Source of the DNA: Neolecta irregularis DAH-3
Taxonomy: Eukaryota; Ascomycota; Neolectomycetes; Neolectales; Neolectaceae
Assembly (NCBI GenBank): GCA_001929475.1
Contig: LXFE01000343.1
Span: 1 to 33,861, forward strand
Direction of reading: 5' to 3'
DNA: 33,861 bases
A program made the translations under genes and the position numbers. Below the pieces are notes generated by a model that ran no database searches, was not told the DNA's origin, and saw only the letters and a program-made list of their open reading frames with translations. Position 1 is the stretch's first letter. Every line of letters begins with the position of its first letter. Of this stretch, positions 3,473-33,861 are shown piece by piece.

Positions 3473-4175
3473 TTAGGAATCAACCTTGTATATGAAGAGG
3501 AAGCAGTTACTCTTGCAAAAATGCAAATTTCCGTCATGTTTAGTCCAAATCAATCCCAACTCTTCATTGTCTGCAATTTCATCATCGTGATTGCTGGCCC
3601 ATATTTGCCAGACTTCCCTACCGTCGTCACTACAATCTTTATGGCCGTCCCAGACGACCCACGGATCCGCGGCGTTGGACTGAAACCATGTGTCGACCAC
3701 GGCTTGAACGCCTACCAAGTGCTCGTCTATAAGGAATGAGGAGTCTGTATAGTGCCCCTGTAGTGGATGTGACATTGTTTTGTTGACTTTCTTGTTAGTT
3801 CCTAGTGGAGTTGGAAAATAAAATTTACCGAGTATTCTCATTTGTTCTTTTTCATCAGGGTAACGTTCCAGTTTCGCGATTTCGGACTGGATATGCTTAA
3901 TCGTGGGTTTCAAATCTGATATTTCGTTAGTGTGCTCCATGAGGGGCTTGGGATACCGTACCGTCACTTATTCTCTGGTATTGATGCCATCTTGTGAGAT
4001 CCTCTGGTGATGGTCCTCCCCAGATGTCCGAATATATGGTCTCACCTTTGAAGTTGTAAATATAACTTGCTTTGAGCGCCGCATCTTTAATTTCAGCAAA
4101 GATCAGATGGTCTTCAAGAAGATGGGTTGTATTGACGGTAAGGAAACACACACAAAGTGCAATGAAAAACTTCAT
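3473..4175 (-). CDS. Small secreted protein of unknown function (effector-like)
   Basis: Exon 1 (4175-3962) and exon 2 (3915-3473) are joined across a 46-nt phase-1 intron that has a textbook CTAAC branch site ten bases before its AG. The product is 218 residues. The N-terminus is a clear signal peptide, MKFFIALCVCFLTVNTTH, so the mature protein is predicted to be secreted. The mature part contains only three cysteines (one near residue 160 and a C-x3-C pair close to the C-terminus) and is rich in Trp, Asp and His, including WVVWDGHKDC and EVWQIWASNHDDE. I do not recognise the family and cannot assign a fold. Size, signal peptide and lack of a known domain fit the general description of a fungal secreted effector candidate, but that is inference. 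About 1 kb of gene-free sequence lies upstream. Confidence 0.7.
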
Positions 4176-5152
4176 GGCACTTGAAAAGAGGCTTGTGAGT
4201 TTAAGGAGGAAAAAGAGGATTTATGTTCTTCTATGCAAGAGCATGGCGGGGTATCACAAATGAATCAGAAAGGTAATATCGCCCAGCTTCATCATGGTCT
4301 CATTAAGTTTGTGGCACGGTGAACAAAATCAACAACATATTAGTATTTTCTACGAGAAACTACCCAACCTTCCTCCCCCTCCCTTCGTCATCCTACACCA
4401 TTCTGGCGGGCCTAGAAAGATACTGGTACCCCTTTCCTTTTCCTTTTGTTTGTTTGTCTCTACTTCCGGGGTGACTGGTGAACTGCTGTGCAGCCTTTTG
4501 CTGCTCCCGGGTTTGTATCTCTGTTGTTTTCCGTTTCCGTTAACTTTCCTTTATCTTTGTACTCGTTCCGTTTGATACCAGCCTGCTGCTGGCGGCTACT
4601 TAAAGGGCTGGTTTTCTGTATTCGTAAGTAGCCAATTGTATTAACTTATTTCCGTTTCTAAGTCTTGACGACCCAAGAGACTGAAAGCCAATACGACCGT
4701 GGTCAACAATCAACAACCTATTACCCTATAAACATTTGCAACATCTAGCTACACCCTTCGTGCTTCAAGTTATACTATGACCATCGAGATAGCTTTCTAT
4801 AATGAACAAGTATGCATTTCCAGGGGACGAATAGAACGAACATATCTGCCCCGGCCCCAAGGTGCTGCTTAGAAAATCAAAACACGACACATGACTTCGG
4901 TCCGACAAAGATCATAGAAAAGAAATGGAGATCCCTTAAATACTCTCCACAAAATTGAATGTATCATCCCCATGCCACAAATTTAAGATGGAGATAACAC
5001 TGTAATCAAATCAACAAAATCATTTTAAAGGATAGTTAAAACCCAATGCAATCTCAAAGAAGATAGATAGATAGACAAAGAGACAGGCAAATGCATCTCG
5101 AAAAGAAAAACAGAGAAAAGAAAATGCCCCCTCCATGTCCTCCAGTGCCGAC
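4176..5152. other. Gene-poor interval, pyrimidine-rich block and a short microsatellite
   Basis: These 977 bases contain no gene I can support. The part next to 4175 must hold the promoter of the minus-strand secreted-protein gene. From about 4365 to 4470 the plus strand is strongly C/T-rich (CCTTCCTCCCCCTCCCTTC and CCTTTTCCTTTTG runs). A GAT-A tetranucleotide run, AGATAGATAGATAGAC, lies at 5061-5076. The right end is the 3' flank of the BRL1 gene. An open plus-strand stretch at 4294-4575 has no coding-like character. Confidence 0.5.
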
Positions 5153-17660: not shown

Positions 17661-18921
17661 ATGCCTCCTCACCTAGAAATTATTTTTACGGTATTGACGC
17701 ATTTGTCCACTCAACAAATGTTTATTTCAGTCTTCTCAAGTTGAATCATTCTTTGACATCGCTTTTGTGCCAAGAGATAATATATTTGCTGTAGTTGGTG
17801 GTCGAACTGTATCCCTTCAATCTTTCCAAAAAATTGATTAATCCAGAGGTATTACTTTTCGAACCTTTTGAAAGATCGGTCGACATGCTCGGATCTTTCT
17901 TCGACTCTGCAAATGTATATTACTCCTAATTACTATGATTGATAATTTAGGCGGCTGAGGAATATTATTGTTGTTGTTGGACATGGATCGACGATGTTTA
18001 TGTTCTTTGCGTTGCTGGAAAAGATGGAATAATCAAAGTCTTAGATGTAAATAATATGACGCTCCTAAAAGTAATTTTACAGGAGGCTTTATTGCTGATT
18101 TCTAGACGCTGACAGGGCATGGGTTTGTAGGATCATTCAACAGATTCTTTTTAAAGATTAGGCGATCCTGGATCTTTCAACCCATCCAGTTAATTCAAAT
18201 ATCATTGCATCAGCCTCTGAAGATAACTCGGTTCGATTATGGGACATTCAGTCTGGAGAAACCGTTTCTATATTTGGCGGAGATGGAGGACACAAGGAAC
18301 AAGTCATTTGCTGCGTATGTCTGTTCCTCGCCTGTGAGGCTAATGATGTAGACATTCCATCCATCAGGTGAATATCTGGCATCTGGCGGAATGGACAACA
18401 CTCTCAAAATTTGGAAAATTCCAGAGAATTTTCACAAGTTACAGATCTCGCACCCAATCTTTTCAAGCAGGGAGATGCATACGGACTTTATTGATAGTAT
18501 CCAGTTTTATGGAGACCTGATCATCGCAAAAGCTGCTTCCCAGTGTCGAATTATCATTTGGCAGATAATTGGCTTTCCTTTATCGACAAAAGCGGTTGTC
18601 AACATAACAATAAAATCATCTAGCGTAGAAAGAATTGCAACTTTAGATCTTCCGAATAGTCAAAACTGGTATATTCGACACTCTATCAGCTCTGATGGGC
18701 GCCTTATCTGCGGGAATGGCGCTGGATCGATATTCAGTTGGACTTTGGAAGATTTAAGGATTCAGAGGCCAGTAGAGCCTATCAAGGCGAATTGGTCTGG
18801 TCAAATTCCTGGCTACATGGGCACAATCAGGAAAGTTGAGAGTTCGAAAGATGCACAATATCTCATCGGATGTGGAGAAGGTGGAAAGATTGTAGTATGG
18901 AGGATGATAAATGATAAATGA
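17661..18921 (+). CDS. eed: EED-type WD40 protein, Polycomb repressive complex 2 subunit
   Basis: EED/Esc reads H3K27me3 and activates the PRC2 methyltransferase, maintaining facultative heterochromatin. Seven exons: 17661-17690, 17731-17808, 17849-17914, 17951-18070, 18106-18126, 18162-18314, 18352-18921; introns are 40, 40, 36, 35, 35 and 37 nt. All introns are phase 0 and the product is 345 residues. Recognition rests on the order of WD40 blades with EED-specific wording. FAVVGGRTVLLFEP leads to EEYYCCCWTW, then LTGHGFAI, IASASEDNSVRLWDIQSG and FGGDGGHKEQVI. After that come SGGMDNTLKIWKI and the hallmark FSSREMHTDFIDSIQFYGDLIIAKA, which corresponds to FSTRDIHRNYVD in animal EED. The last blade ends GEGGKIVVWRM. 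Exon 5 is only 21 nt. The N-terminus is short, so an upstream exon cannot be excluded, although ATG 17661 opens in frame. TSR2 converges from the right. Confidence 0.85.
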
Positions 18922-19080
18922 TAATATTAAAGATTGATTCTTCACAAGACAGTATATGACAAGCACCCAAACCAGACTTATATACAAAACATTGATTCTC
19001 TCGACCGTGGAGATGAAATATTTTCTTTAAACCATGAGGCACACATTCAGGTAGAGCACAGCCAAAAGTCTCCTGGTAAT

Positions 19081-19641
19081 TTACGACTTCCGCCCATTCC
19101 TATTCTGAACCATTTCAAACCCATCTTGATCAATAACCGGCCCTCTTAAGGGTTGAGGTTCGGCAGTTGTTTCGTCAACTTCCATTGATGCATCGCTTGC
19201 TTCATCATCATCATCTGGATTGTCGCATCCCTCAACTACAATTTGGATAGGTGTGGTGCTGTGAGCATGATGCCGTAGTTGGAGTTTGGTTACTGGTTCA
19301 TAGTTTCCTTGCCTGCATTCTTGATATATTATCATGATGTCTCTGGCATTTTCGCAGGCAGAATCGTCGTCTACGTCTACATTGAACTCGTCTTGCATGA
19401 CTTGTAGCAGTCGAGCTTCTACATCTTCTTCACATACTTGGCTTCCATCTAGACTTTTAGCATATTTTATAGAGTTTTGTAAACCCTCGAATAGATCTAC
19501 CACAGCACCAGCAAGCCAATCTCGTTTATCGCCACTATCTGGCCCACCCCAATGATTCTCGACTGCTACTCGCAAAACAGTCCATTTATACAAGATCAGA
19601 GCTACGCCTAGTTCGAAATACCGTCGTTGAACATTTTCCAT
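19081..19641 (-). CDS. TSR2: Pre-rRNA-processing protein Tsr2 (eS26 escortin)
   Basis: Tsr2 carries ribosomal protein S26 from the importin to nascent 40S subunits and is needed for 20S pre-rRNA processing. It is a single uninterrupted exon of 186 residues, one of few intronless genes here. Family features are visible. An N-terminal helix FELGVALILYKWTVLRVAVE is followed by the core motif NHWGGPDSGDKRDWLAG and EEDVEARLLQVMQDEFNVDVDDDS, the helix MIIYQECRQGNYEPVTKL, an acidic linker rich in Asp and Glu, and the conserved C-terminal VIDQDGFEMVQ. The ATG at 19641 starts just before the first helix and gives the usual length of about 180-200. The gene is convergent with EED and divergent from the HECT ligase. 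Confidence 0.93.
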   Translation of the reverse strand: MENVQRRYFELGVALILYKWTVLRVAVENHWGGPDSGDKRDWLAGAVVDLFEGLQNSIKYAKSLDGSQVCEEDVEARLLQVMQDEFNVDVDDDSACENARDIMIIYQECRQGNYEPVTKLQLRHHAHSTTPIQIVVEGCDNPDDDDEASDASMEVDETTAEPQPLRGPVIDQDGFEMVQNRNGRKS

Positions 19642-19904: not shown

Positions 19905-22900
19905 ATGCAGATTACGAAATCGCTTCCAAAGCGTCTTACACCTCCTGTATGTATTTAATGGGATCATCAATAACCAGCAATAGCCCCCTGAAATCAAAAA
20001 ATTCATTGACATCGCTATATCAAGTCTAGATGTCGACTTGCCTAGCCATCTTTCATCATTGCAGAAATGGGTATACCCGCGTGGCGAAATGTTTCATTGG
20101 ATCCCTGTTCTAAATCGATTGGATGAAGTTTTGGAGAAATTGGTTGAAAAATACGAATTGACCAAAGTGCAAGGAGCTCCTTTCGAAGACTTTGATAAAT
20201 CCACTCTACTCTCGGTTCTCAAATTCACCTCATTCTTGTTCGATCATTCAGCGAATCGGTCTCTCTACAATTCATCCATGGTATCCTAACCTTTTTCCTG
20301 GATAGAGCTTATGTGACGTCAGCATTTGAACCATTTGTTACATACTACTGACATTGACGTTCTTGAAGCAAATCTTCGCCTGTGTCTTCGAATGGCCCAA
20401 CGGATACCAATGTCAGGTCATGCTAAGAACATTTATAAAATCAACCATGATCGAATCATGGAACTGGCTGTGAGTTGGCAGCGACAGAGGAAAACAAAAA
20501 TATCATTGGTTCAGTTGCTTCAAGATGACGCAGATATCCCAGAAGATTGGACGGGCCTGAGTTATCAATATTTTAGACAGGATCCCTCTCATTCGCCTGT
20601 CTCCGCATTTCGTCACACACATACTCAAAAGAAGAAAGAACCTGTTACTCCGACTCAGAAACGAGCTGTTGCTGAAGAGTACACTGAAGGCATAGTTGCC
20701 ATTGAAATCTCGGCAGAAAAACTCCAGAAGAGCTCTCTGGAACATGTTGTTCAGCAAACCATCACACAATTCGACCTCCCTCTTGAACATCAGCCTGAAT
20801 TTCTCTACCGCGTTCGATTGGCGAAATATATCCAAGATCCTATTAGACGGAAACAATTGGTTACCTGCCGATTGCTCGCACTGGCTAATGCTGGTAAGAA
20901 ACGCTTTAGCCTTGAACTGACATTTAGCCTACCTTGCTCTTGATTCGCCAAAAGAAGCTAAACTGATGATCTGTGAACCTGACATAATAGTTCGTCTCGT
21001 CGAAATCATCCATCCCGAAAACCATGTTCGTCGGGACGTTCAAACTATTGCTCTAAACGCCCTGGAAGCCTTTTCACATCAAAGTAATGCAGTAACAGAA
21101 GTTCTGACTGAGCTGAATGTTGCTATCAATCATGGGATTCTTTTGTCAGTTCTTCGAATGATGATTCGAGACTTTCAAGAAAGTAAACGTGTGCATCCGA
21201 CCTTATTTGGATATCTTGCTCACGTATTCAGCTGTTGATGAGAACTTTCAGGAGGCGATGTTCCGAATACTGACCTACTTCATTACCATTAGCACTGGCT
21301 CAGGAATGCTCTCATCTGCTGGTTTGATTCCAATCCTTGTTGCTATGCTCGATATTCAACACCCTGAAGCTCTTCGAGCCGTCTCTAAATGTATTGGCGT
21401 CATCGACCATCTTATTTTTGGGCTTCAGACGAGTTTCCAGTCATTCAGCAATGCGCAAGGTCTCAAATTTCTTGTAGATCGATTACAGGTACTGGTTTTT
21501 TCCGACCCTATACTAACTGTCAGCACGAAATTGATTACGGCATTAAACATGCATCTGCGCACACTGAACGTGTAATACCTCAAATGGACTACCAAATGCC
21601 ATACGAACGATTTACCCTCATCAGGACTTGCTTAAAATTCATCCTGCGTATGCTTACTACAGCTGGAATAGCGGACCAACTACGGAATCTCATTGATACA
21701 TCGTTGATCTTAACAATTGGCAAAGTTTTCAACCACTCCCAAGTTTTTGGAGCGACAATTTTTGCGACAATGACGAATATCATGGCGACATTCGTTCATA
21801 ACGAACCAACATCTTATGCCGTTATTCATGAATCTAAACTATCGCATACTTTCCTAGATGCGGTATCGCATGGATTTCCAAAGAGCAGCGAAGTCATGGG
21901 AATTATACCTCATGCCTTTGAAGCCATATGTCTCAATGCACAGGGAATGGAATTGTTCAAACAAATTTCACCAATGAAACCTTATTTTGAGGCGATGCTC
22001 GACGAGGCATACTGTCGAAACACCAGAGATCTCGAATCGGCCAATGCTGGAATCGGTCAAGGATTCGATGAGTTTTTACGTCATCAACCGTCACTGCGAA
22101 GCGATATTTATCGGGATATCCTCGGCTTAATTCGTCGCGTTGTAGACTATGGCGTCCAAAACCCTATTCCTCTGTTGAATGTTAACAAGAGCACCCTAGT
22201 AGAATCTTTGGTTGAAACGTCGGAAGATGTCTCAATGCGTGATGTCTCGAAAGACGTTAGGCAATGCAAAAAAGATGACGAGGAAGAAGTTGCATTTATT
22301 CTTTATCTAAACGTCGTTGCCGCATTCGTCGACGGTATGCTACAGAATCCGAATCAAGTCAAGGAATTCCTCAAGACAGAAGGACTTGATCTCTTGGTAC
22401 AACTGTACACCTCACCCGGACTTCCTTATGACTTTGGTTATTCGTCTGCCGCTTATTCGTTATCACATACCTTCAGACTTGTCGTCGAAGCTAAACCAGA
22501 TGTTGCGATTCCTGTAGTACTTAAAAAGGTCAGGGAGGTGCTTGAATTGATTCGACCAGTACTTGACTACAATGGCTCAGATTCGTTCCTCCGGCAATTC
22601 ATCGATATTCACGAAAACGATCTGGATGTGGCTAAACATGGGAATGAACTCATTAGGAACCTCATCTCTTCTCATGGCCTAATGATGCTTCTGTCTGATT
22701 TATATGCCAATCCAGCTATCAGTCATGGCAAAAGTTACATTTCTCTTTACCAACCCTACATTGAAACCCCGGAATTTCAAGATCTAATCAAGACGATTGG
22801 ACTGCTTCATCGTGTATGTATTTGGGAAGATTTGATGATCATCGGTACCATGTCGAAAGACTGGAACGATGCAACAGTAGCTAAATCAGAAGAACAACCT

Positions 22901-25900
22901 TCAGAGAACGATGAGATAGAGAAACGAAGGGTCCAAGCGGAAAGAGCCATTGATACCTCAGATCCGAAATTCAAAAATGCTAAGATCATCAGATTTTTGA
23001 TCAGTCAAATTCCAAGCGGTATTACACCGACGTTTCAGGGTACATTTGAGGAAAGAAATTAGTTGATTCTTTCTAGGTCTTGGTCGAATCTTAATTTCTC
23101 GAAGGTCTTCTGATAACAATCAAAGAAGGTTGTCATTTGCTATGGGAAAACAACTCGCTATGGTTTTGATAGAGCATATGAACTGGTCCAGAGCAGGTAC
23201 GTCATCTTGCAGTTCAAAACTTCTTATAACTTTAGCTGCCAGATCTACGAAAGACATGTATAGTTACTGGATTGTCATGCTAACCTTAATTCATGGTGTC
23301 CTTTTAGACGGTATTTCGATATTTGATACCTTTCCTTTCTAACTATAGATCGATCAAGCATGAACTCAAATTGCTCGCTTCTCACTTGTATCATGCTTCC
23401 CTTTCAGCAAAACAACGGCCTTGAATCTGTCCTTCGCATCCTTGAGCATTTTTGGCAAGAAGCCAAGTCTGTTCCAGAAGAACTAGGCAACGAAAATCTC
23501 ACTAACGAGCACCTATCGTCAACAACTTCCGCACATGTTCTAGGTGGATTGAAAGTCATTTTTCAATTCCTTCTTCAAATCACACGCTCAAAAACGGTTA
23601 TTGATGCTGCTCAAACTCAGGTTATGCAAGCCAGAACTCAGGATTTGGGTAAAGATGAGTATTTTGTTCCATCAGCATTCCTTCTGCGATTAAGATATAT
23701 CGTATTTCCGACAATTCAAATATGTTGGAAATCAGAGCATCTAATTAAGTTATCAAACTCTCTGGTCAAATTCCTCAGTCAAGTCCTTGCTCAATTGCTC
23801 AAAGGCGAAGGAGAAATCAATTTAATGCCTCAAGAACGTGAATCAAGCACAAGTGTTGCTTCATTTCCTGCTTTCCGTCGAGCGTTGGATGCGACTAACA
23901 ATCCTCGACCTCCAATTCAGTTATACGATGAATCAAATGTTCAGGCTCTTATGGAAATGGGATTTTCTCGGGGTGCTGTTGAAAGAGCACTTACTCGAAG
24001 TCGTAACAGACTTGAAGTGGCAACAGAATGGCTTCTGGCTCATCCAGAAGCCCATAGCTTGCCTCCTCTTTCTCAATCAATCACTCCACAACCCGAACGA
24101 CCCAGTTCAAGTCTAGCTGCCGAAGGAGGTTCGACAGCTGGGGATACTGAACAAGTTTTTCCAGCGCCGACCGTCAGTGAAGCAACAGTTGATGAAGGAA
24201 ATCCATCCATCCGAGTACCTGCCACTCAGCCTACTGCACCAGACGACAATTCCTCTCTCATGAATGTCGACGAAGAATCTAGACCTCGATCCAGCATTGC
24301 AGATCCTACTGGGGATGTTGAAATGGAAGAAGGACCTCTTCGGCCGCAGGTAGTTTTACCGCTTCCCCTGCTTGCAAAAGGCAAAAGCAAAGCAGCCCTT
24401 CGACGTGATGATACGGAAGAACTAATAAAACGAGTCTCAGAACTCCGAAATGATTCTCGAGCTACGATAATTGAACGTGCTCTCGATATTCTACAAGCCC
24501 ATCCAGACGTCTCATACGATATTTCAAAACTCATTATCGGTGCGTCAGATGGGTCTATACATCAGGAGTGGAGATTAGAAACGACAACGGTCATTATCGA
24601 GAGCATTCGTAGTCTTGCAGGTTCTCGAACTGATCCTTGTAAAGGTCTAGCTTTGACCTCTGTCATCCATCTCTTTGGACTTCTTATTCACGAAAAACCA
24701 TATTACTCGGATGCGTCTGCTGCCATCCAGGCAGATCTCCCGCTTCTCGTCGAAATCTCCCGTGTTAATGATGATGAATCTCCGCCTTGGTCCGCACATG
24801 TATTTTTAATATTCGAAGAGCTCTTGAATCACAGCGACCAGCCTATTCATGTCACTCTAAATCAGCATGGAGCTGAGGAATTTGTTGCTCGTTCCAAAAC
24901 TCCAATCGATGTGGTTAAAATTGATCTTGATGTTCGCATTCAGATATTCGAAAATATATTGAAAGTCCTCCAAACCCAACCTCAAGATAAAAATCTTGTT
25001 ATTACAGTCCTTCGTTTACTAGTGCGATTTACCAGGCAACGAGAACTTGCCACCCGAATGGTGCAAGATGGAGCTCTCGCAAATCTCTTTGGTACCATCC
25101 GAAAGCTATCTGGGCAGCATCTTCAAACCATTCAAGTCCCTCTTCTCCTCGTCCTTAGACACATCGTTGAAGATGAGTCGATTCTTCGGTCTATCATACG
25201 GACTCAAATTCGAGCAGCCTGTCGACCCAGTCGGTACGGTACACATGCTACTGATATGACCGTTTTTATGAGATCCACAGCGCCGGTCGTTCTTCGAGAT
25301 CCCGATACATTTTCTCAAATCATAACGGAACAATGTAAGCTTGCAGAAGGAGATCTCGGCATTTCGCAGCATTTCATCGACTTGAGAAGTCCCCCACAGA
25401 ACAAGGACGCAAATAGAGCAGAGACCTTGACAGATAGCAAAGAATCTCACTCACAGGACAGCAATACCAAACCACCAGGTGTGGAACATCCCGATGGAGT
25501 CATTCATTTTCTTGTTACGGAACTTTTGGCCCTTAAAGACATTGCTGATGGGGAACCTGAAATCAAACAGTCCGATAAAGTTGACGATGCTGAGACACAC
25601 AAGGAGGAAAAGAAGGTTCAGGATTTCAAGCTCGAAGAAAACTCGGATTTTCTTTATCGACTCTTCCTCCTTCAATGCTTGACTGAATTACTGGGTGCTT
25701 ATAATCGCTGCAAACTTGAGTTCATCAACTTTTCTCGTCGAGCTCATCCTAGAGAAACGATTACCCCTTCTAAACCACGCTCAACAATTCTCAACCACCT
25801 TCTTTATGATCTTATTCCGTACGATGTCAATGATTCGTCAGAAGCTCTTAAACCACACCTTAAGAAGCTCACCTCAGATTGGGCTATGTGGTGTATAGGA

Positions 25901-28900
25901 AGCTTGCTTTCCCATACCGGCGAGTTGCCAAAAGACGAGGAAACCTCGGACTTTATATTCGTTCGGAAATTTGCTCTAGAGGGGATTTTGAAAGCATTCA
26001 AGGAAGACACCGTTCACTATGAAACTCTCGACGCCCGTTATACTCGCTATATAGTACTATCCGAGTTGATTTTCAAATGTATTGTCCCCAAAGAAAATAT
26101 TCAGCAAGGTTTACGTCGCATCGCAGTGGATACAAATGATAAACTTGAGAAGCTTATGTTCGAGAAAAATTACATCAACGTTCTAACAAGCGTCGTTTCT
26201 GATGTTGATCTTAACTTTCCTACAGCAAGCCGAGTAGCTCGAAAGATTCTAAAGCCGCTTAAGCACTTGACGAGTGTTGCTAGCAAAATCACGGAGACCC
26301 GCGATGTCAATATTGGCGATGAAATTTCAATTGCTGAAAGTCTTTCTGACGCTGGGTCTGATGGTCGCGAAGAAACACCAGACTTTTATCGTAATTCTTC
26401 TCTGGGAATGTTACATGGAGACATGGAAGAAACTGAAGGTTCTGAAGAATTCGACGAGAACCAAGACGAGGATATGTATGACGAGATGGATTTCGATGAA
26501 GAAATGTCAGGAAGCGGGGGAAGTGGAGGAAGCGCTGTCAGTGACGAAGAGAGCGAGCATGAGCATGATCTTGGTCATGATGATATGAACGTGAGTGTTT
26601 TGTCATTTCGACACCGATACTGATTACATAGGTCGAAGTCGTACTCGAGGAGGAAGATGACTCAGAAGACAGTGATGATGAATCTCATTCTGATGAAGAC
26701 ACAGAAGCTAGCGCAGATAGGTATTCTGATACAGGTGGCCTTGAAGTTGTGGCCGATGACGAAAATGAGGGTCAAGAAGAATGGCAAACGGAATCTGAAG
26801 GGTCAAACGAACACGAATCTGAAGCAGCGGCGCGGCGCTTAGCAAGCACCCTCGAGACGATGCAACAATTTCCTGGAGGGGGAGCCGTTGGTCGAGCTCG
26901 AGAAGATCCATTCAATGAAGAGATAGGTGAAGAATCCGATGACGAAGAAGCAGACATGGATGGAGATGATGGATTTCTAGATGGAGACGATGATGACGAG
27001 GAGGCAATGGACGACTTTCAGTGGAGCTGGGGGCCTGATCTTGGTGATGGGAGCGGTGTACCTACTATACGACCACGTTCGCATAGATTCGTGTCTCGTC
27101 ACGTACGCGGACTTGGTTAGGCCCTTTGAATCATTTCCTTGCTTATACCCTTTAGAAGACGTGCCTATGTTTAGACGCAACAGGATCGATGCGCCTGCGA
27201 ATCGAAATGATGAATGGGTTTCGCATCCTCTCCTCCAAAACCCAGCTACGAATCAGCGGGCAAATCCCATTTCTGGAGCAGAACCTGACAATGTTGAGAG
27301 ACGGCATGCTGTTCGTCTCGAACAATTCACAGATTGGGTCCAATCGCTTCAAGATTTCACTGGAAACGGGGGTGTTCATGTTCTCGGCGACATCCTCAGC
27401 CGTGCTACTGCGAGAAGTGCACTGCAACCTGGGGGTATTAGAGTAGAACTTACCACAACAGGCCCTGTCGCTGCTCGTGAACTTGAGGCTCTTTTTGGTG
27501 GAAGAGCTGCCCTAAGGAACGACTTTTCTCGAAGTCACGTAAAACAACAAGATACCTTCCATTATATCAAAGCCTTTCTACCTGCAACAACATCTCAACG
27601 ATGGCAAGACGAGGCACGAATCATGTACGGCAACAATTATCTTGAAATCGCCAATCGAAGCGTCAATATCTTTCTAAATCGCTTGCTTCCCGAAGCTCAT
27701 GAAGTAGAGCGACTTCGAAAAGAAACGCAGGCCAGAGCCATTGAAGATCGCCGTGCTCAAGCCGAGAAGAAAGCTGCAGAAGAGGCTGATCAGCAACGCA
27801 TCAAGGCTGAAGAAGAAGCTGTTCGGGTAGCTAAAGAAGAAGCCGAAAGGAAGGCTCGCGAAGAAGAGGAAAGGATTCGTGCTGGGGCTGAGGCTGAGGC
27901 TGAGGCTTCCAATGCCGATAACTTAAATGAAGCAATGGAAGGAGTCGAACGAAACGAATCTGTTGATCAACCTGCTGGTGGAATAGGTCCTTCCATTCCA
28001 ACAGAACGTCGAGTTGTCAACATTTCCGGACGAGAATTCGATATCACAGACCTGGAAATTGATGTCGAATTTCTTGAGGCGCTGCCAGAAGAAATGCGAG
28101 AAGAAGTTCTCACCCAAGCGATTCGCGAGCAACGCCCAGAACGTTTGACCGATCAGTCGACTGAGATTAATCAGGAATTTCTTGATGCACTACCGGCAGA
28201 AATTCGTGCAGAAATTCTCGCACAAGAAGCATCCGACCGAAGTCGGAGAAGCCAGCAATCACGTCGAGGTCAGGATCCTAGCCCTGGTGCCTCTCATACA
28301 AATGCCCAGTTGGGTGATTTAGGATTCCCTGATCTTATCACGACATTAGACCCAGCTCTTCGTAACTCGGTCCTCGCTGAACACGACGGAGAGGTCTTGA
28401 GTAATCTTCCGCCTCACCTTCTCGCTGAAACTAGCGATCTTCGAAGAGCACTTCCCACTGACATGCGGGATCTTCGTGGTGGGTTTGACGGGCTACAGGC
28501 ACGGTATGGAGCTCTTCGGCATGCTTTTAGGGACCTCAAACGTCCCACCAACCCACCCGACTCTAAATCACAGAAAAAAGATGCCGTTCAACTTCTCGAT
28601 AAGTCTGGTATTTCTGCTCTCATCCGTCTCGTTTTCCTTCTGCAAAACCCTATCCGCACAACTCTGTCAGATGTACTCCTCAATGTCTGCGAAAACAAAC
28701 ATAACCGTGCGGAAGTTGTAACTTTGCTTTTATCGGTACTTCAAGATGCAACATACAACTTGAGTTCGATCGAGAAGAGTTTCGCTCAACTAACCTCTCG
28801 TGTCTCCAAAAATACTCCTAGCACACCGAAATCTGCTTCTAAGCAACGTCAAAGCGGCTTCCCTACTCTATCATTATCAAAATCTCTGGGAGAGGATGCC

Positions 28901-31453
28901 CCGAATTTGGTTACTCAGCAATGTATTTTTATTCTAAATCATCTTGTCGTTAACAACGAACATTTGCCATCATTTTTCCTTAACGAACATGAAACTGCTG
29001 CTCTTAGCTTAAAAAGATCTTCCAGCCGGAAGGGAAAAGGCAAGGAGCCTGCTCGGAATTCGAAATACCCGGTTAACACACTCCTTGGGTTGCTGGATCG
29101 TTCAATCATTCTAGACAATTCCTCAACCGTCGAAACATTTGCACGATTACTCTCTATTGTTACACGACCTCTTATGATGCTGCTCCGAAAGGATAGGGCT
29201 AAGGATTTGCCAAAGAGTGGAAGTAAAGAGGATGAGAAGATGAAAGAAAACCTGGGTTTCTCTGAGGTAACACATACTCAAGGTTTACATCATCTTCGAT
29301 TACAGACTGATTTCTGCAGACCCAAATACTTCTCTAGCTGCTCCAGAAATCCTGTCAATAGCGAAAAAAGACGATTCTGAGGGAAAGAGAAAAACTAAAA
29401 CCCTTCAACCTCCTCAGATTGCGGAAGCAAACATCAAGCTAATCTGCAACATCTTAAAAGCTCGTGATTGTGGTAGTAAGACCTTTCAATATACTCTCGC
29501 CACTATGCAGCACCTCTCGGCATTACCGGAAGCTAAACAAATATTTGCCATTGAACTTGCGAAGTCTGCGCAGGACTTAAGTGGGACTATTTTGCCAGAT
29601 CTAGAAGAGCTCCTCTCGCAGATACAAGGTGCACCTCCAGATTCAGAAATTAATGGACAAGCACTATCCCGATTCTCTCCTGCCAGCTCTCATCAGACTA
29701 AACTTTTACGAATCCTTAAAGCAATCGATTACCTCTTCGATCGTAATGCGAAGCCACCTGCAATTGACTCTGATAGAGAAGAAGTGACCAAATACGAAGC
29801 CGAAAAATCGCGTATTCACAACGCCTATCAACAACTTTCATTTGGCATGGTATGGAAAATATTAAGCGAGTGTCTTTCGGCTGTACGCTCAAGGCCGGAG
29901 AACATGCATATCGCGTCTGTCCTACTACCGCTTATCGAGGCCTTGATGGTAGTATGCAAAAACGCAGGTATCAAAGACGCCAAATCTCCTAGTGTATTCC
30001 GTCAAACAATCCTAACCAGAAATGATACAATGGAAACCCTTTTTTTCAATTTCACCGAAGAGCACAGAAAAATTCTTAATCAAATGGTTCGTGCTACGCC
30101 TTCGCTGATGAGCGGCTCATTTGCGCTACTGGTCCAAAATCCAAAAGTTCTTGAATTTGATAACAAACGGAATTACTTTAGTAGAAAGTTACATGAAAAA
30201 GCAAACCGAGAAAATCACGGAGTTCTACAGCTTAACATTCGGAGGGATCTTATTTTCTTGGATTCTTATCGTGCTTTGTATTTCAAATCCGGGGATGAAA
30301 TGAAATATTCCAAACTCAACATCCGATTTGCTGGCGAAGATGGTATCGATGCGGGAGGATTGACTCGAGAGTGGTACCAAGCTCTTGCAAGGCAAATGTT
30401 CAATCCCGATTATGCACTCTTCACGCCAGTCGCCTCCGATCGCACAACATTCCATCCGAATCGAACTTCAGCGATCAACCCGGAACATCTTTCGTTCTTC
30501 AAGTTCGTAGGTCGAATTATCGGTAAGGCGTTGTATGATGGGCGGCTGTTGGATTGCCACTTTAGTCGAGCCGTTTATAAACATATTTTGGGGAAACCGG
30601 TTGCTCTTAAAGATATTGAAACACTTGATTTGGATTACTACAAATCACTACAGTGGATGCTAGAAAACGATATTACTGACATTATCACGGAAACGTTTTC
30701 AATCGAATCGGACGAATATGGAGAGAGAAAGATTGTAGATCTTATCCCAAATGGCCGTAGCATTACCGTTACGGAAGAGAACAAGCATGAATATGTTCGT
30801 TTAGTGGTGGAATATCGTTTGAACACTAGTATTCAAGATCAGTTGTCCAACTTCCTCACTGGTACGCGATTGCTATCCTCCCTGTAATCTCATACTTTAG
30901 GATTCACAGATATCATCCCGGAAGACCTTGTTAAAATTTTTAACGAGCAAGAACTGGAACTTCTTATATCTGGTTTACCTGATATTGACGTTGATGACTG
31001 GAGGAATAATACAGAGTATGCCATCAAGTGAAAGGCTTACTGACCTGTGCAGATATCATAATTACAATGTGTCCTCACCTCAAATTCAATGGTTTTGGCG
31101 AGCAGTACGCTCGTTTGACCCAGAAGAAAGAGCCAAACTTTTGCAGGTATACAATATCTACAAATGATTACTGATGTGAAAGTTTGCCACTGGGACCTCA
31201 AAAGTGCCATTAAATGGCTTCAAGGAACTTGAAGGAATGGGTGGGCAACATCAACGCTTTAACATCCATCGTGACTACGGATCTGCTGATCGACTACCTC
31301 AGAGTCATACATGTTTCAACCAGGTATTCTTTCAGTATGTTTTACATCTTCTGACTACAACAGGTGGATTTGCCTGAGTACGAAACTTACGAGCAGTTGC
31401 GGAGCACTTTGTTGAAGGCGATTACAGAGACGCAAGGGTTTGCTTTCGCTTAG
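19905..31453 (+). CDS. TOM1: Giant HECT E3 ubiquitin ligase Tom1 / HUWE1
   Basis: Tom1/HUWE1 ubiquitinates excess ribosomal proteins, histones and other nuclear substrates. Sixteen exons: 19905-19946, 19984-20280, 20323-20893, 20928-21188, 21232-21488, 21524-23039, 23077-23196, 23236-23310, 23349-26590, 26632-27115, 27156-29282, 29320-30861, 30901-31015, 31053-31146, 31183-31323, 31364-31453. The 15 introns are 34-43 nt. The coding sum is 10974 nt, 3657 residues (yeast 3268, human 4374). Domains in order: N-terminal armadillo-like DUF908/DUF913 solenoid (about 60-1100); UBA with [16 protein letters not shown] (about 1240-1280); acidic region (about 2064-2254); WWE-like/charged coil (about 2480-2535); two UBM helices with [17 protein letters not shown] and [17 protein letters not shown] (about 2585 and 2627); HECT from about 3280. 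The catalytic cysteine is Cys3625 in SHTCFNQ (codon 31312-31314), 32 residues before the end. The C-terminus GFAFA has the Phe at -4 expected of HECTs. Confidence 0.96.
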
Positions 31454-31582: not shown

Positions 31583-31871
31583 AGGGTGCGTTCGTCAGCC
31601 ACCATAAAAAAAATGGGTGCGTTTGGCAGCCTCTTTTTATGCCCAGTTTGGCCAGAATTTCATGAAATTCGCATTTGACATGCGCGTCTTGCAACCACAA
31701 AATAGACTCGTTTTTTTATGATGTAAAGAGATCAGTGATAAGGAATTGCGATTCAGTAAAATTTGGCACGGGACTGCGAAACGGATTTTTTAGAATTATG
31801 CGAAATAGATTTTTAGTTTCACGTTTTCGGATTTTATGAAATTATTTTGAGGGTGCTGCCAAACGCACCCT
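31583..31871. mobile_element. MITE-like element with about 20-nt terminal inverted repeats
   Basis: The left end reads AGGGTGCGTTCGTCAGC (from 31583) and the right end is the reverse complement of AGGGTGCGTTTGGCAGCACC (31852-31871). This gives two near-identical inverted termini around 289 bp with no coding capacity. A second copy of the terminal motif, GGGTGCGTTTGGCAGCC, lies just inside the left end (31615-31631). A perfect 16-nt palindrome, GAATTTCATGAAATTC, lies at 31655-31670. These features fit a non-autonomous DNA transposon. I do not see a convincing target-site duplication, so the superfamily is open. It sits 130 bp beyond the TOM1 stop codon. Confidence 0.6.
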
Positions 31872-32564: not shown

Positions 32565-33861
32565 ATGAAATCCTTTGTTATTTTCTCGCTTGCTTTCCAT
32601 GCAGCTGCGCTGCCTGTAAATAAACAAACTTCTGATATTTATGCGAGTTCTACGAGCAAGACAACTCTACAGTTGAACAGAATGCAAAACCTCGGCCTCG
32701 AAATTCGTACAAAAGCATCCATGAAATTTACTTCTAGTGCGCGTGGTATCATTCTTAATTATCTCTGACAAGCTGAAAGTTATAGGGATAGAGTTTAAAG
32801 GAGGTGCTAAATCTAACATCGAAGGAACAGTAGTACCCGTTGGTATATCTTTTAATATACAGTATCTTTATACTAAATGTATCAGATGCCAGTGTCCAGA
32901 TTTTAGCAGAGACCAAAGCGCACTTTGGCAAGACCAGTAGAAATCCACTTGCACGAATCGATAAACACAGGACAAAAGAGCCTGAAATGTCGCTCGTCTC
33001 TGTTGCTAAATCCAAGGCGGCTACAGAAATCAAAAATGGCCGAGTCACAGGTATTAGAGTTGTGATAAACCCTGGCTGATCGATAGCTATTGATACCGAA
33101 GCGCATACAAATATTAGAGCAAAGGAAAAGCTACAATCACGTATTTATCAAATGTTTCATTATCTGAACTGACCAAAGCCGAAATCCAAACTGACGCTGA
33201 TTCCAAAGTATCAGTCGATCTCGCTCAACATTCCTTTGCACTGCCAGATAGATCTGAAACAAAAGGAAAGGAAGAATCAATGGTAATGATTAAAACCAGC
33301 GCCTCAGCCTCTCTACAAATGGAAGGCGGGTCGATCAAAACTGATGTTGAATCAGTGGCAAAATTTAAAGCAGATAACCTCGATCCAACGAGTACGATTA
33401 ACAGAACAGGACTGTAGCCTAAACATTAGATCTTGATACTCAAAGCAACGCTAAAGTTAATATTCAGCGACCAGTTTCTACACTCTCTGCTAGAAAGCAG
33501 AAGAAACTGCCGACCCTCTCGAATAAAACATCAAATGAAAACAAAAGGGTTATCAACAAGCAGAGTAAGTTTTAAATACCCTTCTGAGTTTTAAAATAAT
33601 GAAGTAGGCAATTCAGAAAACCCTTCTCCTTCCAAACCATCGACTCTTTCAGCTCATAGAATTTCATCATCAGGACCAAACTCAAAACCCAAGAGGCCGG
33701 TTAAATTTATTACCGACACAAATGCTATATCTACGGCAAAAATTGGGTCAGATCTACCTGTCAATACCTTGCCTTTTTCAATTCTTCCTTCTACTAGAAT
33801 TACGGCAACATCGTCAGCAGACGTGAAGATTGAAACTGTTCCACTTAGACCAGAACCTTCG
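32565..33861 (+). CDS. Secreted protein built of short degenerate repeats on phase-1 exons (3' end beyond window)
   Basis: Seven exons are visible: 32565-32745, 32786-32842, 32886-33050, 33087-33140, 33179-33391, 33430-33564 and 33608 to the window end. Introns are 40, 43, 36, 38, 38 and 43 nt. The reading frame is continuous for 353 residues and runs off the edge. The N-terminus MKSFVIFSLAFHAAALP is a signal peptide. The mature part has no cysteine and is rich in Ser, Thr, Lys and Ala. It repeats a roughly ten-residue motif, T/S-x-A/S-x-x-K/S-V/I/F-x-V/I: TKASMKFTS, TEAHTNIRAK, TDADSKVSVDL, TSASASLQMEG, TDVESVAKFKAD, TQSNAKVNIQ, SSADVKIETV. The last part becomes a basic, Ser/Pro-rich region (SKPKRPVKF). 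All six introns are in phase 1, so every internal exon is a symmetric module that could be added or lost without breaking the frame. I do not recognise the family. Confidence 0.7.

Follow-up and report, generated by a model that had tools for sequence, protein, structure and literature searches.

What kind of protein is encoded by the gene that runs off the 3' end of contig LXFE01000343.1 in Neolecta irregularis DAH-3, an ascomycete of the Taphrinomycotina? The window analyzed here is this whole contig (33,861 nt), and the gene occupies positions 32565 to 33861 of its forward strand. A first-pass annotation had proposed a modular, rapidly diversifying secreted protein assembled from small symmetric exons, after the manner of the bicycle genes of aphids. 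Although most members of its group are yeasts, Neolecta has a complex multicellularity like that of the Pezizomycotina, and the published genome of N. irregularis comprises 14.5 Mb (N50 16 kb) with 5,546 predicted genes, of which 99.4% have RNA-seq support (PMC5309816). The portion of the assembly searched here amounts to 8,961,725 bases in 363 contigs, or approximately 62% of the published 14.5 Mb.

The exons were first derived by eye, and an ab initio gene finder was then written and trained on the N. irregularis genome (21 stretches, 233,861 bases of which 26,830 are N, the window included). The gene finder returned seven exons and six GT..AG introns of 36–43 nt, with the start ATG at 32565. 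Exon 1 (32565..32745; 60 codons plus one base) opens with the signal-peptide-like segment MKSFVIFSLAFHAAALPVNK, after which the mature chain would begin. It is followed by intron 1 (32746..32785; 40 nt), exon 2 (32786..32842; 57 nt), intron 2 (32843..32885; 43 nt), exon 3 (32886..33050; 165 nt), intron 3 (33051..33086; 36 nt), exon 4 (33087..33140; 54 nt), intron 4 (33141..33178; 38 nt), exon 5 (33179..33391; 213 nt), intron 5 (33392..33429; 38 nt), exon 6 (33430..33564; 135 nt), intron 6 (33565..33607; 43 nt) and exon 7 (33608..33861), which is cut by the contig end with its frame open to the last base. All six introns are in phase 1, and each of the five internal exons is consequently symmetric (1-1). 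The NCBI protein NEOLI_001627 (231 residues) is identical to the predicted protein through the end of exon 5, by which exon 1 and introns 1–4 are implied; it then extends exon 5 to a stop at 33415–33417 and lacks introns 5 and 6. Because NEOLI_001627 stops after exon 5, introns 1–4 are backed by a separate annotation and introns 5 and 6 come from our own models alone; the seven-exon structure is thus a prediction with partial support from the NCBI model. Retention of any single one of the six introns would introduce an early stop, while the frame is kept when any single internal exon (2–6) is skipped. Both the uniform phase and the possibility of skipping exons without a frameshift, as claimed in the first-pass annotation, were therefore borne out.

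The gene has several neighbors of interest in their own right. Between it and the preceding gene, at 31615–31870, lies a short element bounded by a perfect terminal inverted repeat of 16 nt (GGGTGCGTTTGGCAGC). Counting itself, this element has 18 matches spread over 16 contigs, with many of the matches partial, as in a MITE-like family. The preceding long gene (~19984–31300, forward strand), which we take to be a TOM1/HUWE1-type ubiquitin ligase, contains open frames with UBA, UBM and HECT domains (Pfam), and its ab initio model is split by many introns, with first and last exons that are provisional. A gene-finder model at 17885–19149 (forward strand) predicts a WD-repeat protein resembling Polycomb EED. 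With 18352–18918 as the query, the best 60 of 304 matches include a generic WD-40 protein at the top (E value 1.2e-16) and EED chains (E values 7.4e-15 and ~5e-12). The genome contains one match above the cut-off to preSET_CXC (C317:15297-15377) and one to a SUZ12-type VEFS box (C61:11048-11314), the latter with one stop inside the match. On these sequence matches PRC2 seems to have been kept in Neolecta; to our knowledge, fission yeast has no PRC2. None of the papers listed by a literature search on this topic names Neolecta. At 3473–4190, on the reverse strand, a putative gene model with another signal-peptide-like start (MKFFIALCVCFLTVNTTHL) may encode a small secreted protein.

How unusual is a gene with six phase-1 introns? 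The reference consisted of 64 other predicted genes with a coding length of at least 600 nt, shorter predictions having been dropped, and their introns are likewise predicted. The 295 introns of these genes fall into phases 0, 1 and 2 in the numbers 129, 88 and 78. The probability that all six introns of one given gene are in phase 1 is 7e-4, and that all six share any one phase is 0.008. Taking the 64 reference genes as typical, one would expect ~0.44 genes with at least six introns, all of them in phase 1, among the 5,546 of the genome, and when phases were dealt at random within the sample of 65 genes, 0.6% of the trials produced such a gene. Genes with a single intron phase made up 3 of the 28 with at least five introns, all three in phase 0, and 1 of the 17 with at least six. 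Internal exons bounded by two phase-1 introns numbered 23 of 236 in the reference genes, against 21 expected. The phase pattern, though real, is mildly rare and not extraordinary, since it comes near to what chance yields somewhere in the genome; it is best taken as chance or as an old trace with no function today. The internal exon sizes given in the first-pass annotation also hold, but with a local 10th percentile of 60.5 nt, only two of the five (57 and 54 nt) are small for this genome.

The internal exons had further been said to be built from one degenerate ten-residue motif, which as written has nine positions, six of them specified. This was not upheld when the motif was counted against 2,000 shuffles per segment. 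Exons 1–6 contain no exact copy and two near copies at 5 of the 6 positions, TDADSKVSV in exon 5 and TQSNAKVNI in exon 6; the count at this stringency gives a printed p of 0.0 (2,000 shuffles), but this very sequence had supplied the pattern. With 4 of 6 positions the count is again two (p 0.13), and at 4 or more it is zero both in the repeat-unit segment of exon 7 and in the rest of the C157 part described below. An expectation-maximization motif search (60 shuffles each) gave p 0.15 for 8 sites and p 0.03 for 12 sites in exons 1–6, and p 0.28 in the C157 part. The 12-site solution adjoined exon starts, but this register was not reproduced with more restarts over 16 settings of width and site number (p 0.09–0.997), nor was there sequence likeness after the exon junctions (p 0.38, 0.25 and 0.53). 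The two halves of exons 1–6 can be aligned to each other with p 0.03, and those of the C157 part beyond its repeat units with p 0.73. The alternation of hydrophobic residues at i,i+2, a sign of beta repeats, showed no significant excess in exons 1–6 (p 0.11) or in the C157 part (p 0.74). Duplication of exon units at the DNA level was considered and rejected, since the similarity among intron-plus-flank units, with flanks that do not overlap, does not exceed that of shuffles (mean p 0.12; maximum p 0.28). Of an internal repeat in exons 1–6 there remain weak signs, namely the two tests at p 0.03.

A clearer repeat is found at the contig end. Exon 7 meets no stop before the 3' end of the window, where the contig breaks off inside a 75-residue (225-nt) repeat unit; the first 37 residues of this unit are encoded at 33751..33861 (forward strand). 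When the gene was searched against the 8.96 Mb, one other locus alone was found, at the end of contig C157. There, at C157:8984-10630 on the minus strand, a frame of 548 residues is open on its 5' side and ends at a stop; the partial NCBI protein NEOLI_003920 corresponds to 537 of these residues. This frame opens with the same repeat unit that starts at 33751 in the window; 75 residues further along a second copy begins, with a likeness that fades after ~57 residues. The window and C157 units share 83% DNA identity over 112 bases and 73% identity over 37 residues. Moreover, window positions 33619–33858 match the coding sequence of C157 with 45% identity; the likeness thus starts before 33751. 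The core RITATSSADVxIETxP is kept in all three unit copies, and synonymous exceeds non-synonymous change in each pairwise comparison (dN/dS 0.40–0.57; 0.163/0.289, 0.188/0.475 and 0.384/0.677), as would be expected of a constrained coding repeat. The core of the unit was not detected beyond chance in exons 1–6 (p 0.79) or elsewhere in the C157 part (p 0.09), and the likeness between exons 1–6 and the C157 part beyond the units is also not beyond chance (p 0.12). In total at least 901 residues can be read, 353 in the window and 548 in C157, and if the repeat units are whole, at least 38 residues would lie in the gap between the two.

Neither piece has a Pfam family at an E value of up to 1, and in non-exhaustive searches of ~5.8 billion proteins no relative was found outside Neolecta, the matches being the two Neolecta pieces themselves. 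One of these searches scored only the 7,995 candidates that shared most words; another missed the C157 piece, which was then found with words from the appropriate region. That search, with residues 268–353, gave the C157 piece, P0001 (E value 1.2e-8), as the sole match among 20 candidates. No paralogue other than the C157 piece was found in the 8.96 Mb of genome or in the protein collection. Among solved structures there was no match for exon 1, and one at chance level for the C157 part (E value 0.2). The locus tags NEOLI_001627 and NEOLI_003920 were not found mentioned in the literature searched, and none of the papers listed in a literature search concerns such a protein, as judged by titles and the openings of abstracts.

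The composition of the two pieces is distinctive. Cysteine is absent from all 353 and 548 residues, compared with a median of 1.3% in the 64 local predicted proteins, only one of which (248 residues long) is free of cysteine. Ser and Thr together account for 20.9, 29.8, 23.3, 22.0 and 17.0% of five segments, where the 64 local proteins have a median of 14.6% and a maximum of 21.0%; relative to the median this is the high Ser/Thr content of GPI-type surface proteins, although two of the segments (20.9 and 17.0%) lie below the local maximum. Many yeast wall proteins have a higher Ser+Thr content than that found here. N-glycosylation sequons are few, with one in the window piece and two in the C157 piece. 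The tandem repeats characteristic of GPI-type surface proteins are likewise present: the window has a single truncated copy and C157 has two copies. The signal-peptide-like segment (32565..32609; residues 1–15) has a mean Kyte-Doolittle hydropathy of 2.0 over residues 4–15, and by the -3,-1 rule the likely cleavage site, judged by eye, is after Ala15 (A-x-A). At the other end, the C157 frame closes with ..TSGSTKGRKSNSMKIYISALLAIAIGASVF, in which small residues are followed by a polar spacer and 16 hydrophobic residues (mean hydropathy 2.3). Small or polar residues ahead of a hydrophobic end are the layout of a GPI-anchored protein, and by eye the tail resembles a GPI signal. Elsewhere, in a scan that excluded the signal-peptide region and the last 20 residues, no 19-residue window exceeds a hydropathy of 0.95. 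By the charge-hydropathy rule exons 1–6 come out as narrowly disordered and the remaining four segments as folded, a result that does not establish an unfolded stalk; AlphaFold2 models made without an alignment (mean pLDDT 39.0 and 37.6) were uninformative on the fold. The suggestion of a secreted repeat protein thus stands as regards the signal-peptide-like start and the lack of detected relatives outside Neolecta, but the most distinct repeat of the gene falls within its long final exon, outside the mini-exons.

We consider it reasonably probable that the locus encodes a repetitive, GPI-type cell-surface protein with a signal peptide, from one gene that has been annotated as two pieces. The window would contain the 5' part of this N. 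irregularis gene and the end of C157 the 3' part, the assembly having broken in the 225-nt tandem repeat. We infer the join because the window lacks a 3' end, C157 lacks a 5' end and their compositions agree; it is further supported because the only relative found for either piece is the other. The product, of at least 901 residues, would be directed into secretion by an N-terminal signal peptide, and a GPI anchor would probably replace the hydrophobic tail. The chain so placed at the plasma membrane or in the wall would be long and repetitive, rich in Ser, Thr and Lys and devoid of cysteine. It would serve there as a spacer, or in adhesion and as a coat of the wall in hyphae or fruiting bodies, and changes in length through gain and loss of 225-nt units would be the likelier source of variation. 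That the contigs join, and that the product is secreted, anchored and active in adhesion, are proposals from sequence; the repeat itself, and the absence of relatives from the searches made, were observed. NEOLI_001627 and NEOLI_003920 should probably be corrected and combined into one model. When a contig breaks within a repeat, a surface protein can be mistaken for a small secreted one, and a surface protein confined to Neolecta is a fair candidate for a part in hyphal cohesion.

The same pieces could instead derive from two paralogous genes sharing the 75-residue repeat, with the window as the 5' end of one and C157 as the 3' end of the other. The contig ends differ at 17% of bases and therefore are not the same DNA, and the genome search covered only 8.96 of 14.5 Mb. 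Such a pair, however, requires two missing gene halves, and the protein collection, with NCBI records for both contigs, yielded no further piece of the repeat region; we regard it as unlikely. That the NCBI model is right, and a secreted protein of 231 residues ends at 33415–33417 with the remainder not translated together with it, appears improbable: the favored gene-finder model splices out introns 5 and 6, and exon 7 matches the constrained coding repeat in C157. In favor of that model is NEOLI_001627 itself, from an annotation in which 99.4% of the genes have RNA-seq support, a figure given for genes in a part of the paper that does not address single junctions (PMC5309816).

There is similarly little probability that this is an exon-modular, fast-diversifying protein of the bicycle kind, whose symmetric mini-exons have been duplicated, lost or skipped. 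The six phase-1 introns, the in-frame skipping of each internal exon, the lack of relatives outside Neolecta in the protein searches, and the weak repeat signs in exons 1–6 (halves p 0.03; 12-site motif p 0.03) would suit it, and the internal exons of bicycle genes, which start with codon position 2, can be read as flanked by the same intron class (PMC9168663). Against this, no gene family was found in the genome portion searched, the intron units show no similarity (p 0.12), the motif is weak and without a robust register, no more than two of the five internal exons count as small for this genome, cysteine is lacking, and a single long open frame, ending in an anchor-like tail, makes up the C157 part. 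The claim of a rapidly diversifying family of this type is consequently not sustained. We see a very slim chance that a surface protein found only in Neolecta combines two modules, skippable phase-1 exons at the 5' end and a number of 225-nt units that varies between individuals, to give a variable hyphal coat. Were this so, one gene could supply a variable coat for adhesion or self-recognition in the formation of fruiting bodies.

Returning to the one-gene, GPI-type surface protein that we prefer, three known systems can be compared with it. Bicycle genes have ~17 exons on average and a minimum of five, with unusually small internal exons, almost all of which start with codon position 2; they are named for CYC motifs, of which many of the proteins have two, and 476 related genes are present in one aphid genome (PMC9168663). 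The Neolecta gene resembles them in its signal-sequence-like start, in the five of five internal exons that start at codon position 2, and in having no relatives found outside its lineage, and the seven exons seen are within their range. Unlike bicycle genes, it has no CYC motif (no Cys in 901 residues), no family beyond the C157 piece was found, it ends in a long repeat exon with an anchor-like tail, and it belongs to a fungus and not an insect. In exon size the comparison is less clear-cut, its exons being mostly of normal size for the genome with two of five internal exons under the local 10th percentile of 60.5 nt. The Map4/Mam3 adhesin family of Schizosaccharomyces includes no member with a GPI signal in the account drawn on here, and lectin-like or DIPSY domains are frequent (PMC6023273). 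Common features are membership of the Taphrinomycotina, repeats and a secretion signal, which in the Neolecta protein is putative; in contrast, the Neolecta pieces have no Pfam match and their tail is GPI-signal-like. CaHwp1, CaPga22 and ScFig2 are fungal GPI-type repeat adhesins or wall proteins without a recognized N-terminal domain (PMC6023273). Unlike in these proteins, to which no sequence relation was found, the 5' part of the Neolecta gene is split by introns, Cys is absent, Ser+Thr reaches only 17–30% by segment, and the anchor and adhesion are putative. The Neolecta protein nevertheless shares with them a large size, a signal-peptide-like start, tandem repeats, Ser/Thr enrichment, a GPI-signal-like tail and the lack of a recognized domain.
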